Origin: an uncultured Anaerovibrio sp.
GTDB lineage: Bacteria > Bacillota > Negativicutes > Selenomonadales > Selenomonadaceae
DNA length: 35,401 nt
Direction: 5' to 3'
Assembly (NCBI RefSeq): GCF_947302755.1
Contig: NZ_CAMYWM010000010.1
Span: forward strand, 1 to 35,401
Part shown: one piece after another, positions 27,968 to 33,697 of the stretch
How positions within the stretch are numbered: the first letter of the stretch is position 1
Layout of the letters: each line of letters begins with the position of its first letter
Translations under genes and position numbers: made by a program
Notes under the pieces: model-generated
The model's input: only the letters and a program-made list of their open reading frames with translations
Database searches by the model: none
What the model was told of the DNA's origin: nothing

Positions 27968-30826
27968 TCATTCAGCCTTGTACTTTTTGAATTTGGCAAA
28001 AATTTCATCGATTTCCGGTCCCGTCAGCTGATATTTTTCCACCAGCTTATCAGCCAGGGCCTTGATGGCTCTTTTTCCCTTTTTTACAATCTCCAGGGTT
28101 TTTTCGTATTCCTGCTGAATGATTTCATTGGCCTCATCATAAACCTGCACCGCCGCCGGACTGACAGACAGGGTCTCCAAGGGAATATAGGCCCGCAGCT
28201 TCCTGCCCATGCCCAAATTATTCACCATGAGAACTGCATGAACGGTAGCATTTTCCAGGTCACCGCTAATCCCTGCGTTAATGCCCTCCTTTTCCCCGAA
28301 AAAAGCTACCTCGGCGGCCCGGCCGGCCAGACTGACCCGTATCTTGTCAATATACCACTGACGATTGTAATTTTTGCTGATTTTCTCATTTACCTTGGGC
28401 TTGGTATAACCGCCATATTCCTCCCGCCCCACAATGGTCACAAAGGAGGACTGTTCCCCGGTGAGCCAAAGCATGTATGCATGACCTGCCTCATGAACCG
28501 CCGTGGCAAAATAATTTATTTCCTCCCAATCATGCTTCTGACCAAAGGTCAGCTCATCCAGGGCATCGGACAGAATATCGCTGTCCACCTCCTTTTGCTG
28601 CTTCAAGGCCATACGGGTGGCCAAAGCTATAAATTCATTAATATCAGCAATGCTCTGTCCAAAAACCCGGTCGGCTATGTTATTAATAATCGTATCCGGA
28701 ATGGTGGTAATATCCTTGTTGGCCAGTGCCTTTTTTATTCCTGCAATGCGTTCATCCCTGTCCGGCAGCCGCACGTAAATCTTGTGCTCCAAAAGGTGCA
28801 GCAACTCCGGATCAATATCCGAATTTTCGTCGGAAACTGTGGAATGTGACCAGTTCATTGTACCCACAAACAGCACCGGTGACCCGCAGGACTTAATATC
28901 CTTAATCCCGTTAATAAGCTGTTTAACTGCCCCCAAACCACAGGCCTTTATGAGCAGATCAAACTTTTCTATAAGGATAACCGACGGAGCCTCCCGTATC
29001 CCCTTCTCAAATAAATCCTTCAGAAGGTCACAGGCTCCCTCAGGGGTCAAATCGGCCAACCTGGAGGGGGTAATCATCAACAGAGTGGCATCTCCCTCGG
29101 TGGCCAAGGCCCTGGCCAAGGACACCTTGCCCGCATCGGCCAGACCAAAAAGCAGCACTCCCCCCGGCACACTGTGATACTTCATCACAAAGGCTTCGGG
29201 GTTAACCAGGTATTCCTTCAGATATTTCAAGTCCTCCTTGGCACTGGTTCCACCCACTATATCATCAAAATACCGGGGCTCCTTGTACTCCTCCAGATAT
29301 TCATCCACCGGATCAGGCCCCTTGAGGCTTTCAAAGTCAAAATCGTAAAATATAACCTCAGCCGTTTTTCCATCAGCAGATAATTGCTGGGCTGTACTAT
29401 ACTTTACGATTAGGTCCTCCCGCTGAAGGACATCATAATTCTTTTGAATAAGGGTATCACGGGCAATCAGCAGCAGCTCCGCCTGGGCATGCTCCCGGTC
29501 CACCGACAAATCCACGGTTCCCCGGGCCCCCTTTTGCCTGAAGGTAAAATAATCCGCCATGGTAATGGAATCGTGCTTTATCAGGTATACCGGCAGGGTC
29601 GGCAGATTTTCCCGAATAATTTCAAAGACCCCCAGGCCTACCGAAACCTGGTCATCAAGGCTTAACACGCTGAAGCCCCTATCCTCAACTCCCTCCATCA
29701 AATCCACCACCGCAAAGGACAGACAGGCCTCTGAAAGAATCTTCACCGCCTCATCAATATCCTTGACAAAAATGTAATCCAGATACTCATTATCCAGCAA
29801 ACATTCATATTTTTCCTGATTGGCCACCAATAACACCTGAGGCTTTTCCCTGTAGCTGAACAGGGTGGTCATGGGGCTATCCGCCTCAGGCCGCTCCACT
29901 GTAAAATTAATCCGTTGGATTTTGGTCAGGGCATCCGGCTCCAGATGACGGCTCAGCTCATAAAACTCATTTTTCAGAAAAGCCTTACTAAGGGATAATA
30001 CGGAATTGGCATCAATCATATCACACTGGTTAAACAGGCACAGATTCAGCATATCCGGATCCAGCTCCATATCGTAGCCGTATTCATTTTTAATCTCGGT
30101 GGCAAAATCAAAAAAGCTATGCTCCATCAGCTCCAACAAATGATTGACGGCCATATCCTTGAAGAAAATAATATTCTCATTATTGAAATATTCGTAGAAG
30201 AATATAATGGGAAAATCCGAGTCCTCCAATTCCTTGGCAAAGGACCCCAAAATAACCGACTTAGGCAGCATGGAGCCCAAAGCATCATTTAAATACAGCT
30301 CCGCCCCCACATGGGTTGTGAAAATTATCATGGTTTCCCGGAAGGATATGACCTTCTCATTGGCGGCGTCCACCACCTGACCGGTTTCAATGATCTTGCT
30401 GATGGCTGACACCACCTTGGGACTGGCCTTTTCAATATTCTTTAGGAGCAGAATACCATTGGGATTTTCCTCCACAAACCTGGTTATCCGTCCCGTCTTT
30501 TTGCTGCCGCTTACCGTGTAGACCAGCTCCTTGGCAAAGGGCTCTGCCGCATTCATATCCAGATTTATTTCCAGAATGCTCCGCCCGAGTACATCGGCAG
30601 TAATATGGGCCAGACGGGATTTACCAATACCGGGCGGCCCTGACAGCAAAAAGATATTATGCATTGTTTTAGAGGATGACTCCGGAATAAACTGCCCCTT
30701 GAACACCCCCTGAACGAAATAATGTATGGCCTCATCCTGCCCCATAATGTTGGCGCACAGAGTCTGATACAGCCGTTTTGTGTTCTTGGAAAGCTCCACC
30801 AGCTCCTTTTTCTTATTTCGCTTCAT
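27968..30826 (-). CDS. multidomain M41 (FtsH-like) peptidase with two AAA modules and receiver-like insert
   Basis: A 952-residue protein with no membrane segment. The order is: a ClpB/ClpA C-terminal-type AAA+ module (about 25-300) with intact Walker A GPPGIGKS (63-70) but Walker B altered to LLLKNIEKA (K129, N130 for Asp-Glu); a receiver-like domain (about 328-441) with D375 at the expected phosphoacceptor position but without the acidic pair or the Lys; an FtsH-like AAA module (about 519-700) with Walker A GLADAGKV (561-568), Walker B VILIEK and no Arg-finger GRFDR; then an M41 peptidase with HEAGH (778-782) and the third zinc ligand D856 in SGDLENAT. The peptidase looks active, while the ATPase parts look largely disabled. 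The start follows AAGGTGGTGA. Function unknown; a soluble regulated protease is the simplest inference. Confidence 0.85.
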   Translation of the reverse strand: MKRNKKKELVELSKNTKRLYQTLCANIMGQDEAIHYFVQGVFKGQFIPESSSKTMHNIFLLSGPPGIGKSRLAHITADVLGRSILEINLDMNAAEPFAKELVYTVSGSKKTGRITRFVEENPNGILLLKNIEKASPKVVSAISKIIETGQVVDAANEKVISFRETMIIFTTHVGAELYLNDALGSMLPKSVILGSFAKELEDSDFPIIFFYEYFNNENIIFFKDMAVNHLLELMEHSFFDFATEIKNEYGYDMELDPDMLNLCLFNQCDMIDANSVLSLSKAFLKNEFYELSRHLEPDALTKIQRINFTVERPEADSPMTTLFSYREKPQVLLVANQEKYECLLDNEYLDYIFVKDIDEAVKILSEACLSFAVVDLMEGVEDRGFSVLSLDDQVSVGLGVFEIIRENLPTLPVYLIKHDSITMADYFTFRQKGARGTVDLSVDREHAQAELLLIARDTLIQKNYDVLQREDLIVKYSTAQQLSADGKTAEVIFYDFDFESLKGPDPVDEYLEEYKEPRYFDDIVGGTSAKEDLKYLKEYLVNPEAFVMKYHSVPGGVLLFGLADAGKVSLARALATEGDATLLMITPSRLADLTPEGACDLLKDLFEKGIREAPSVILIEKFDLLIKACGLGAVKQLINGIKDIKSCGSPVLFVGTMNWSHSTVSDENSDIDPELLHLLEHKIYVRLPDRDERIAGIKKALANKDITTIPDTIINNIADRVFGQSIADINEFIALATRMALKQQKEVDSDILSDALDELTFGQKHDWEEINYFATAVHEAGHAYMLWLTGEQSSFVTIVGREEYGGYTKPKVNEKISKNYNRQWYIDKIRVSLAGRAAEVAFFGEKEGINAGISGDLENATVHAVLMVNNLGMGRKLRAYIPLETLSVSPAAVQVYDEANEIIQQEYEKTLEIVKKGKRAIKALADKLVEKYQLTGPEIDEIFAKFKKYKAE

Positions 30827-30898: not shown

Positions 30899-32398
30899 CT
30901 ACTGCTTCTTTACCCTTTTTCCCGAAGACTGTATTGCCCGGGCCTGGCATACCAGAATACACAAATGACAGCCCACACACCTTTTCGGATTAAGTACAGG
31001 CTTCCTGTTTTTTAACACTATAGCCTGATGACCGCCATCGGCACAGGATATCTGACAGCGTCCGCAGCCAATACACTTCTTGAGCAAGAACTGGGGATAT
31101 ACCACTGTATCCCGCTCCAGGCACTCTGTCGTATTACTTACATGGGTCAGGGCTAACCCGACTATCTCCTGGACACTGTTCCTGTTTTGAAGCTTCAAAT
31201 AATATTTAAGGCCGGCCTTCAGATCATCTATAATCCTGTAGCCGTACTGCATGACAGCCGTTGTTACCTGAACCGTCCCGGCCCCCATAAGGATAAATTC
31301 CGCCGCATCCTGCCAGGTTTCAATGCCTCCCATACCACTGATATGGAGATTGGCCAGCTCCGGATTTTTCCCAAGCTCAGCAATAAATCTTAAAGCAATG
31401 GGCTTTACTGCTCTGCCACTATATCCGCCCACTGCCGAAGTCCGTCCCACCGCCGGGCTGGATACATATGTCTCCAAATTTATCCGCATAATGCTCTTGA
31501 TTGTATTGATGGCTGAAATTCCCCTTGCACCCCCTCGCTTGGCGGCCTCCGCCGCCTCACTCATGGTGGCCACATTAGGTGTAAGCTTGGCCAAAACAGG
31601 AATATTCACCCCACGGCAGGCGGCCCTGGTAAATCGTTCCACATATTCGGGACTCTGGCCAACATCTGAGCCCAACCCCTCCTCCATCATATTGGGACAG
31701 GAAAAATTCAGCTCTATGGCATCGGCCCCGTTTTCCTGACACAGTCTGGCCAGCTCCTCCCATTCCTCATCGTTGCGGCCCATAATGGAGGCCAGCAGAA
31801 ATTTATTAGGGTAATCCCGTTTCAGGTCCTTAAAAATTTTCATATTTTCCACAACACTGTGGTCGGACAGCTGTTCAATATTTTTAAACCCCATTATGCT
31901 GCCGCCGCCACCGGTAATGGCCGAATATCTTGGGGACGCCTCACGAATGGCAAAATTACAGATGGTCTTGAAGGAAACGCCGGCCCACCCTGCCTCAAAG
32001 GCCCGGGCGCACATATCATAATTGCTGCCCACCACCGAGGAGGACAACAAAAAAGGATTTTCCAGGGGAATACCGCAAATCTCCGTCTGCAATATATCAT
32101 CATTTGCCAACGCCTCTGCTGTAACCTTAGGCTCTACATTATGCCTCAATCGGTTCATCAGCTTCATTATAGGTACCTTACCGGGACTAATGCAGGCTGC
32201 TTCACAATCACCTGAACACTCCGCGCAATAATTCCTTTCCGGCAGGCCGGCCGCCGCATGATGCTCGCCGCCGAACCATATACTACGCAATTTATCGCCT
32301 GGCTGAAGCTTTGCCGGACAGGCTGCACTACAGGGAGCATCACCGCACAAAGCACAAAACATCATTTCACGCCGTTTGATTGTCGGCTGCAAAAACAT
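30899..32398 (-). CDS. PreA-like dihydropyrimidine dehydrogenase with N-terminal Fe-S domain
   Basis: About 499 residues. The central TIM barrel (about 105-420) resembles the DPD/PreA pyrimidine-reducing domain (SFKTICN, NFSCPNMMEEGLGSDVGQ, LAKLTPNV, SGMGGIETWQDAAEF). The C terminus has two 4Fe-4S motifs, CIGCGRCQISC and CVGCHLCILVC. The N terminus adds a Cys-rich domain (C15, C18, C23, C27, then CAECSGDCEAAC at about 59) like the start of PreT or the DPD N-terminal domain, without the flavin/NAD part. It may reduce uracil/thymine, or a related pyridine/pyrimidine, with electrons from an unknown partner. ATG at 32398 is chosen because GGAG lies 8 bases upstream. It lies 33 bases after the L,D-transpeptidase gene. 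Confidence 0.82.
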   Translation of the reverse strand: MFLQPTIKRREMMFCALCGDAPCSAACPAKLQPGDKLRSIWFGGEHHAAAGLPERNYCAECSGDCEAACISPGKVPIMKLMNRLRHNVEPKVTAEALANDDILQTEICGIPLENPFLLSSSVVGSNYDMCARAFEAGWAGVSFKTICNFAIREASPRYSAITGGGGSIMGFKNIEQLSDHSVVENMKIFKDLKRDYPNKFLLASIMGRNDEEWEELARLCQENGADAIELNFSCPNMMEEGLGSDVGQSPEYVERFTRAACRGVNIPVLAKLTPNVATMSEAAEAAKRGGARGISAINTIKSIMRINLETYVSSPAVGRTSAVGGYSGRAVKPIALRFIAELGKNPELANLHISGMGGIETWQDAAEFILMGAGTVQVTTAVMQYGYRIIDDLKAGLKYYLKLQNRNSVQEIVGLALTHVSNTTECLERDTVVYPQFLLKKCIGCGRCQISCADGGHQAIVLKNRKPVLNPKRCVGCHLCILVCQARAIQSSGKRVKKQ

Positions 32399-32431
32399 CA
32401 CAATCACTCCACTTCAATGGTAAATCAAAAA

Positions 32432-33697
32432 TCAGAAGCTGCCCCCCAGCTTATCCAGGGCATTAATCACTACCACGCAATCCGGGCGGACGTGCTTCAT
32501 CACAAATTCCATTTTATCCAACGGAAGAGCTACACAGCCACCGGTATATGGCTTATTTGGTCCAAAGCTGTGCAGGAAAATGGCCGAACCCTTCCCCGGC
32601 TCCTGCTTATCGTTGTAGCTGATATTCAAACAATAGATGTATTGCGGATTATAGTCCACAATATGCTCGCTGGCATTCTTGTCCAAATCCGGCATTGTCC
32701 GAATATCTACCATTTGGTTATACCTCATACCGGGACGCTCATCCCCGGACCAGTAGAAATTCTCGTCCACCTGCTGATACGGAATGGCACAGCCAGGATC
32801 AGGAGCAATACCAAAGGCCGCATTAAACCCGAAGGTTCCCACCGGAGTTCCGCCATCGCCCTCTTTGGTCTTTCCCAGGCCATTTCTGCCGATAAAGCCC
32901 GGGGTAGTCATAAGCTGACGCCATTGGCCGTTCCAATCCTTCTCATGAAGGGATACCCAGGCAGTTGTGGCACCCACACCGGCTACCACCAGCATTTGCT
33001 GACTGGCTTTAGCCTCGGGCAGCTTCTGCACCCAGGCCGGTGATGAAGCATATTGGCCATCATTATAGCCCTTGTAGGCCTTCATGGCACTTCGCCATTG
33101 CTCAATTACCTCATCGTTGTTAAAGGTCACCGATACCAGTCCCGGATTATTTTTAATAAAATCTGACCGTACCGATTGCCCGGCCCACTGTACCAGCTCT
33201 GTCCACAGGACCTGATCCTCCCTCATCTCCTGTATGGTAGACCGATGATAGCGCACATCCGTTGGATGGTAAAAGACATAATACATTCCCGATATATCCT
33301 TGGCAAATATTTCCACCCCTGACATATCATTGGCCAGCATTTCATTAAGCTGTCCCTCACTAATCTTGCCGATACTGAACAACCACCCCATACCATCGTA
33401 TTTCATATGGGCCAGTCGGCTTTCCTCCACTGATTTCTTTTCGGATACGGTAAACAGCTTACCGTTCTCACCGGCGTAAAGGGCTTTTATAATTAATTTA
33501 TCATTGTGTTTTTCGGGTACAACCAGCTTCAAGCCCTTTGCCTCATAGACATACCCCCCCTGCTGCTGGGTCACTGCCACGGCCGCCCCGCTCACCCCAG
33601 GGACTGCGGCCTGCCCCATATTCAGGGGATAAAGGGCCACCATCGCCGCCAAACCAATACCTGCCATACCTTTACCAATCCAACCTGTATAATTCAC
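32432..33697 (-). CDS. exported L,D-transpeptidase (YkuD domain)
   Basis: A 421-residue exported protein. The signal peptide (about 1-30, ending near GQAA) is followed by an unrecognised N-terminal region (about 40-240) and a C-terminal YkuD domain (about 245-415). The catalytic Cys388 is in TGGCVALP, with the conserved His in LHSFGPN about 12 residues before. The usual S/T-H-G-C-V-R becomes T-G-G-C-V-A, as in a divergent branch. Such enzymes make 3-3 peptide cross-links or attach proteins to peptidoglycan. The GTG start is supported by GGGAGG 8 bases upstream, and no other in-frame start fits. A terminator-like hairpin lies in its long leader (33772-33807). Confidence 0.88.
   Translation of the reverse strand: MNYTGWIGKGMAGIGLAAMVALYPLNMGQAAVPGVSGAAVAVTQQQGGYVYEAKGLKLVVPEKHNDKLIIKALYAGENGKLFTVSEKKSVEESRLAHMKYDGMGWLFSIGKISEGQLNEMLANDMSGVEIFAKDISGMYYVFYHPTDVRYHRSTIQEMREDQVLWTELVQWAGQSVRSDFIKNNPGLVSVTFNNDEVIEQWRSAMKAYKGYNDGQYASSPAWVQKLPEAKASQQMLVVAGVGATTAWVSLHEKDWNGQWRQLMTTPGFIGRNGLGKTKEGDGGTPVGTFGFNAAFGIAPDPGCAIPYQQVDENFYWSGDERPGMRYNQMVDIRTMPDLDKNASEHIVDYNPQYIYCLNISYNDKQEPGKGSAIFLHSFGPNKPYTGGCVALPLDKMEFVMKHVRPDCVVVINALDKLGGSF

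Follow-up and report, generated by a model that had tools for sequence, protein, structure and literature searches.

A candidate M41 protease of Anaerovibrio with two AAA modules that appear to have lost the residues for ATP hydrolysis

AAA+ proteases are defined by the coupling of ATP hydrolysis to substrate unfolding, and the FtsH-type family normally relies on ATP-driven unfolding. We analysed a window of 35,401 nucleotides from an uncultured Anaerovibrio sp. (NCBI RefSeq assembly GCF_947302755.1, contig NZ_CAMYWM010000010.1, positions 1 to 35,401), which carries on its minus strand a gene (27968..30826) encoding a 952-amino-acid (aa) protein with an M41 peptidase domain. On balance, the sequence favours a soluble multi-domain M41 zinc protease with two AAA modules that are predicted to be unable to hydrolyse ATP and that would serve as a scaffold, gate or dock. 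As judged by alignment, the Walker B and Arg-finger residues for hydrolysis are absent from both modules. An initial annotation of this DNA had described only the second AAA module as degenerate; that description held, but the first module is degenerate too and had been overlooked. Also new beyond that annotation are a receiver-like middle domain, a distant homologue with intact motifs, and the co-occurrence of canonical FtsH together with the missing membrane anchor.

The gene was defined by its open reading frame (ORF) and by Pfam and NCBIfam profiles, and was compared across 10 full or partial homologues. The order of domains is a degenerate AAA module resembling the second AAA module (D2) of ClpC, a receiver-like domain, a degenerate FtsH-like AAA module and the M41 peptidase. 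Pfam matches above their own cutoffs were found at aa 59-178 (AAA_2), 557-685 (AAA) and 774-942 (Peptidase_M41). The NCBIfam FtsH model (TIGR01241) matched at 4.2e-39 with 134.8 bits, below the family cutoff of 600 bits.

The second, FtsH-like module (aa 517-757; 28556..29278, minus strand) is a genuine AAA domain. Pfam AAA matched the protein at 1.6e-16 with its best stretch at 557-685, and hmmsearch connected the protein to FtsH crystal structures at 9.9e-39; the replaced motif positions could therefore be aligned with confidence. The comparison set consisted of L044, a distant homologue described below, and 15 FtsH-type proteins from the same class. The initial annotation had placed the loss of ATPase residues at 28741-29150 (minus strand), corresponding to aa 559-696 of the ORF, and its motif positions were correct. 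Opposite GPPGTGKT of FtsH, the former Walker A motif reads GLADAGKV (aa 561-568; 29123..29146), with Val for Thr/Ser; the family pattern is Gx[AS]DAGK[VA], so that the Thr is lost in all 10 carriers and the P-loop Lys567 is kept in all. The former Walker B motif is VILIEK (aa 616-621; 28964..28981) where FtsH has IIFIDE. It appears in the family as LIEK, LIEQ or LMDK, the catalytic Glu being lost in 10/10 members and the Asp in all except L010 (LMDK). The former second region of homology (SRH), LLHLLEHK (aa 675-682; 28781..28804), replaces LLRPGRFDR. The longer string LLHLLEHKIYV (aa 675-685), singled out at the start as having no GRFDR Arg finger, belongs to a HLLEHK or HLLEYK element common to the 10 members, in which both Arg positions are lost and no alternative Arg is fixed according to the family columns. 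In the former pore loop 1, ADLTPEG (aa 591-597; 29036..29056), the aromatic position of the FVG motif is F, Y or W in the 15 FtsH proteins and L044 and is Thr594 in every family member. Sensor-1 Asn658 is kept in 9 of the 10.

Because the replacements in the second module are fixed in the 10 genomes carrying the gene, they are not attributable to sequencing error or chance. The comparison with close homologues, proposed earlier as a check, thus favoured a true pseudo-ATPase family, and by alignment the losses are a fixed family trait rather than local decay. Among residues invariant in FtsH, the second module retained 3/11 at the nucleotide site and 28/71 elsewhere, a difference that was not significant; therefore, the case rests on which residues were lost and on their fixation rather than on any excess of losses at that site.

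The first module (aa 19-250; 30077..30772, minus strand) is related to the second AAA module of ClpC, ClpB and ClpA. AAA_2 matched it at 4.7e-13 with 49.9 bits, above the gathering cutoff of 27, and with phmmer aa 21-237 aligned to D2 of ClpC at 1.7e-17. In this alignment, PEFINRIDEIIVF of ClpC lay opposite FYEYFNNENIIFF of the 952-aa protein, and LLDEIEKAHP of ClpC was aligned with LLLKNIEKASP. At the former Walker B motif, ILLLKN (aa 125-130; 30437..30454), the Asp-Glu pair is thus replaced by Lys129-Asn130, which is fixed in all 10 members; the corresponding segment of L044 is FDEIEKAH. The former Arg-finger region, IFFYEYFNN (aa 208-216; 30179..30205), aligns with PEFINRID of ClpC (FYEYFNN against EFINRID); its Arg is lost and no Arg is fixed there across the family. 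The Walker A motif GPPGIGKS (aa 63-70; 30617..30640) survives as GPPGxGK[ST] in 9/10 members, the exception being GPPKIGKA of L010, in which the Gly and the Ser/Thr are lost. The first module therefore resembles the HSP100 second module (ClpC, ClpA, ClpB) in its alignment to ClpC D2 and its intact P-loop, but differs in having Lys-Asn for the Walker B Asp-Glu and no Arg finger. The peptidase also differs, being an M41 metalloprotease fused in cis as opposed to ClpP.

The M41 peptidase domain (aa 774-942; 28001..28507, minus strand) matched Peptidase_M41 (PF01434) at 6.3e-22 with 78.8 bits, well over the gathering cutoff of 29.9. The peptidase site had been read as intact, and we found the same: the zinc and catalytic motif HEAGH (aa 778-782; 28481..28495) is invariant in 10/10 members, and the third zinc ligand position, D856 (28259..28261), is invariant in the nine members that cover it. 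In addition to HEXXH and the third-ligand Asp, the domain retains 20 of the 30 residues that are invariant in the FtsH set.

The gene was present in 10 of 16 genomes of the GTDB genus Anaerovibrio, each from a different species, and among 380 genomes no carrier belonged to another genus of the class. The carriers include, by named records, A. lipolyticus, Anaerovibrio sp. JC8, Anaerovibrio sp. RM50 and rumen metagenome-assembled genomes. Identity to the window protein ranged from 63 to 90%, and the frame is open in all members. The ratio of nonsynonymous to synonymous substitution rates (dN/dS), calculated by the Nei-Gojobori method with dS near saturation and hence rough, was 0.03-0.12 for the first AAA module, 0.02-0.05 for the second, 0.01-0.02 for the M41 domain and 0.02-0.06 for the whole protein. 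These values point to strong purifying selection on the second module and on the protein as a whole, and hence to a gene that is maintained. In a tree of canonical FtsH from 14 same-genus species, the 8 carriers included formed one side of a branch with support of 92/95, and presence or absence required one change in 100% of bootstraps. The distribution can thus be explained by one gain or by one loss boundary. The most divergent carrier is L010 (G009:C44), in which the gene is split over two contigs; its first Walker A (GPPKIGKA) and second Walker B (LMDK) suggest that the pace of loss varied between lineages.

In a sample of 398 genomes from across the phylum, a single other genome (G521), from a different class, contained a clear relative, L044. 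It is collinear with aa 9-757 of the window protein (26% identity, E 9e-68), and its motifs are intact in the first and second AAA modules alike: GPPGVGKT, FDEIEKAH, GPPGTGKT, FIDEID and RRFDR. L044 and the Anaerovibrio family have in common an insertion that follows sensor 1 and a missing Pro-Gly ahead of the Arg finger, neither of which is shared with FtsH, indicating that L044 represents the same architecture with working motifs. The dead state therefore looks derived. With one intact relative to go on, the sequences are most simply read as an ancestral intact state followed by a single loss before the Anaerovibrio carriers split from one another. An intact homologue had been proposed in advance as a sign that the window copy is decaying; such a homologue does exist, but it is distant and ancestral-like, and it does not imply decay. 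No further intact homologues were found in other small and mid-sized classes sampled, in plasmids or in viral contigs, a sampling far from complete. L044 has an extra 177-aa N-terminus compared with the Anaerovibrio protein; a Clp N-domain was considered for it, and Pfam gave no support. The L044 contig ends before any M41 domain, and a search of G521 gave an M41 match only in another frame, of 610 aa.

The middle of the protein is read as a degenerate receiver with an incomplete phosphorylation site (aa 327-465; 29432..29848, minus strand), an assignment of CheY-like fold that rests mainly on fold comparison. When aa 190-520 were searched alone against Pfam, there was no credible match, and sequence searches of the region against the PDB gave weak receiver matches only (E 0.07 and up). 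An AlphaFold2 model of aa 300-515 had a mean pLDDT of 68, with most of the core at 75-88. Foldseek matched this model to response-regulator receivers at 2.2e-6, and VIA-align superposed it on the LuxO receiver with Z 14.8 and an rmsd of 2.1 over 117 aligned residues at 16% identity. With active-site positions assigned by the strand ends of the model, D375 at the phospho-acceptor position is the sole invariant one in the family, whereas L044 has Lys there. The acidic pair position is occupied by A335 plus D, N, S or E at 336, the Thr position by K, R or Q at 417, and no Lys is conserved after strand 5. The domain is probably a docking or signalling module.

The hallmarks of FtsH are a membrane anchor, Walker A and B motifs, the SRH, the FVG pore motif and HEXXH (PMC9020784). 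The 952-aa protein shares with FtsH the order of AAA module and M41 peptidase as well as HEXXH and the third-ligand Asp, but it lacks the N-terminal membrane helix, the Walker A Thr, Walker B, the SRH Arg residues and the pore FVG, and it is longer at the N-terminus by about 515 residues, which include a further AAA module and the receiver-like domain. No N-terminal membrane helix was found in it, the top 19-residue hydropathy windows being buried strands at about 616 and 557 and none lying close to the N-terminus, and the protein is probably soluble. Because HEXXH is the only one of the listed hallmarks that it has, it belongs to the M41 family without being, strictly speaking, an FtsH. Canonical FtsH with GPPGTGKT, FIDEID, GRFDR and HEGGH was present in all 14 same-genus genomes examined, the window's own included; the FtsH-like part of the 952-aa protein is about 28% identical to it over 519-877. 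Short M41 AAA proteins with intact ATPase motifs occur beside longer FtsH copies in two genomes from the same class (L013 and L017; frames of 532 and 523 aa). In the plant chloroplast FtsHi proteins, HEXXH has been lost and the AAA domain is intact (PMC8197885). They resemble the Anaerovibrio protein as FtsH relatives that lost one of two activities and are kept by selection, but the loss is the converse, with HEXXH kept and both AAA domains dead in Anaerovibrio, and the FtsHi proteins are membrane-bound and form part of mixed complexes. Our literature search, whose coverage was incomplete and which is not proof of novelty, returned no account of such a bacterial protein.

Taken as an ATP-hydrolysis-free protease, the protein would probably cut other proteins without ATP-driven unfolding. 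The pseudo-AAA modules may still fold and form a ring by which the M41 domains are kept together; such a ring would be a fixed gate or docking platform for an ATP-independent protease. Already unfolded substrates or flexible tails could enter by diffusion, with no ATP pulling; alternatively, substrates might dock on the receiver-like and first AAA domains, so that the N-terminal half selects them. In the first module, the P-loop that survives may hold nucleotide as a structural ligand, and housekeeping ATP-driven proteolysis would be left to canonical FtsH in the same cell. Of what the initial annotation proposed, the pseudo-ATPase status stands and reaches both AAA modules; the scaffold or regulatory role is one that we infer. 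Several points weigh against this interpretation. With Walker A of the first module and Lys567 and Asn658 of the second kept, the protein may still bind nucleotide, or even hydrolyse it weakly by an unusual chemistry. The M41 domain lacks some FtsH-invariant residues, and its peptidase activity is a prediction from sequence. The full-length AlphaFold2 model was too poor (mean pLDDT 51), and no structural claim on the AAA modules rests on it. More tentatively, one bacterial clade may have turned an entire AAA+ protease architecture, with its two AAA modules, receiver and M41 domain, into a protease free of ATP hydrolysis, with both motor rings now structural or allosteric and an intact-motif homologue surviving elsewhere in the phylum as a before-and-after pair. 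If so, the AAA ring has a selected function in assembly, gating or substrate choice that is separable from the motor, and the Anaerovibrio protein is the mirror image of the FtsHi pseudo-proteases. A direct comparison with L044 makes such a motor-independent role of the ring testable.

The main rival, a less likely but substantial one, is a nucleotide-gated switch, in which the first module binds ATP with little or no hydrolysis and binding, possibly together with the receiver-like domain, toggles the peptidase. Nucleotide could be seated in the first-module P-loop, since GPPGxGK[ST] was kept in nine members though Walker B was fixed as Lys-Asn, and D375 is invariant in a domain whose receiver fold is supported. 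However, the Walker A of L010 is without Gly and Ser/Thr, and of an ordinary phosphorylation site the receiver has neither the acidic pair nor the Thr/Ser nor the Lys, the Asp itself being Lys in L044. We consider it improbable that the protein is the inactive subunit of a mixed ring in which canonical FtsH or a Clp ATPase supplies the motor. Canonical FtsH is present in the carriers examined, and chloroplasts are known to have mixed FtsH rings (PMC9020784, PMC8197885), but the low identity to canonical FtsH speaks against such pairing, as does the absence of an ATPase gene conserved nearby (the L041 contig has altogether different neighbours). Moreover, a subunit that provides neither the catalytic Glu in cis nor the Arg finger in trans makes a mixed ring unlikely.

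An active ATPase of unorthodox kind, with E620/K621 and Lys129/Asn130 or nearby residues standing in for the catalytic groups, would agree with the fixed, non-random replacements and with the P-loop Lys and sensor-1 Asn of the second module. It is very improbable, as both modules are without the Walker B Glu and Arg finger, the second is without the Walker A Thr, and no other Arg is fixed at the SRH position. That an ordinary AAA protease gene is being lost is the least credible proposal, even though the distant intact homologue exists and the gene is absent in six of the 16 same-genus genomes. We rejected it on the dN/dS values and on the identical replacements fixed across 63-90% identity; the frame is open throughout, and a single clade boundary, not scattered losses, accounts for the absences.

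Upstream of the gene lies preA, and downstream lie a DUF997 (YhdT-like) gene and panF. The downstream yhdT-panF pair was common to seven of the eight long loci compared, and the neighbours in L041 were wholly different. No conserved partner gene was found among these eight loci, which gives no sign of a dedicated ATPase partner. In L042 (L042:37-6200; uncultured Anaerovibrio RUG13065), chelatase-like genes lie upstream; the gene there is directly 3' of genes for CobN-like, BchI-like AAA and BchD-like AAA+VWA proteins, as named by eye. The six same-genus genomes in which the gene is absent (G001, G003, G005, G006, G011 and G014) were also without a close PanF homologue (best 29% identity), indicating that the neighbourhood differs between the two clades. 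An anti-phage defence system was considered and rejected, as the PADLOC matches were weak and almost wholly on the AAA modules. In the window, 30899-32407 (minus strand) encodes a PreA-like dihydropyrimidine dehydrogenase subunit that is extended at the N-terminus by about 100 Cys-rich residues, a GltD-like cluster by eye; the NCBIfam PreA match begins at residue 106. The product of 32432-33697 (minus strand) is 421 aa long and has a YkuD L,D-transpeptidase domain at its C-terminus (3e-8).
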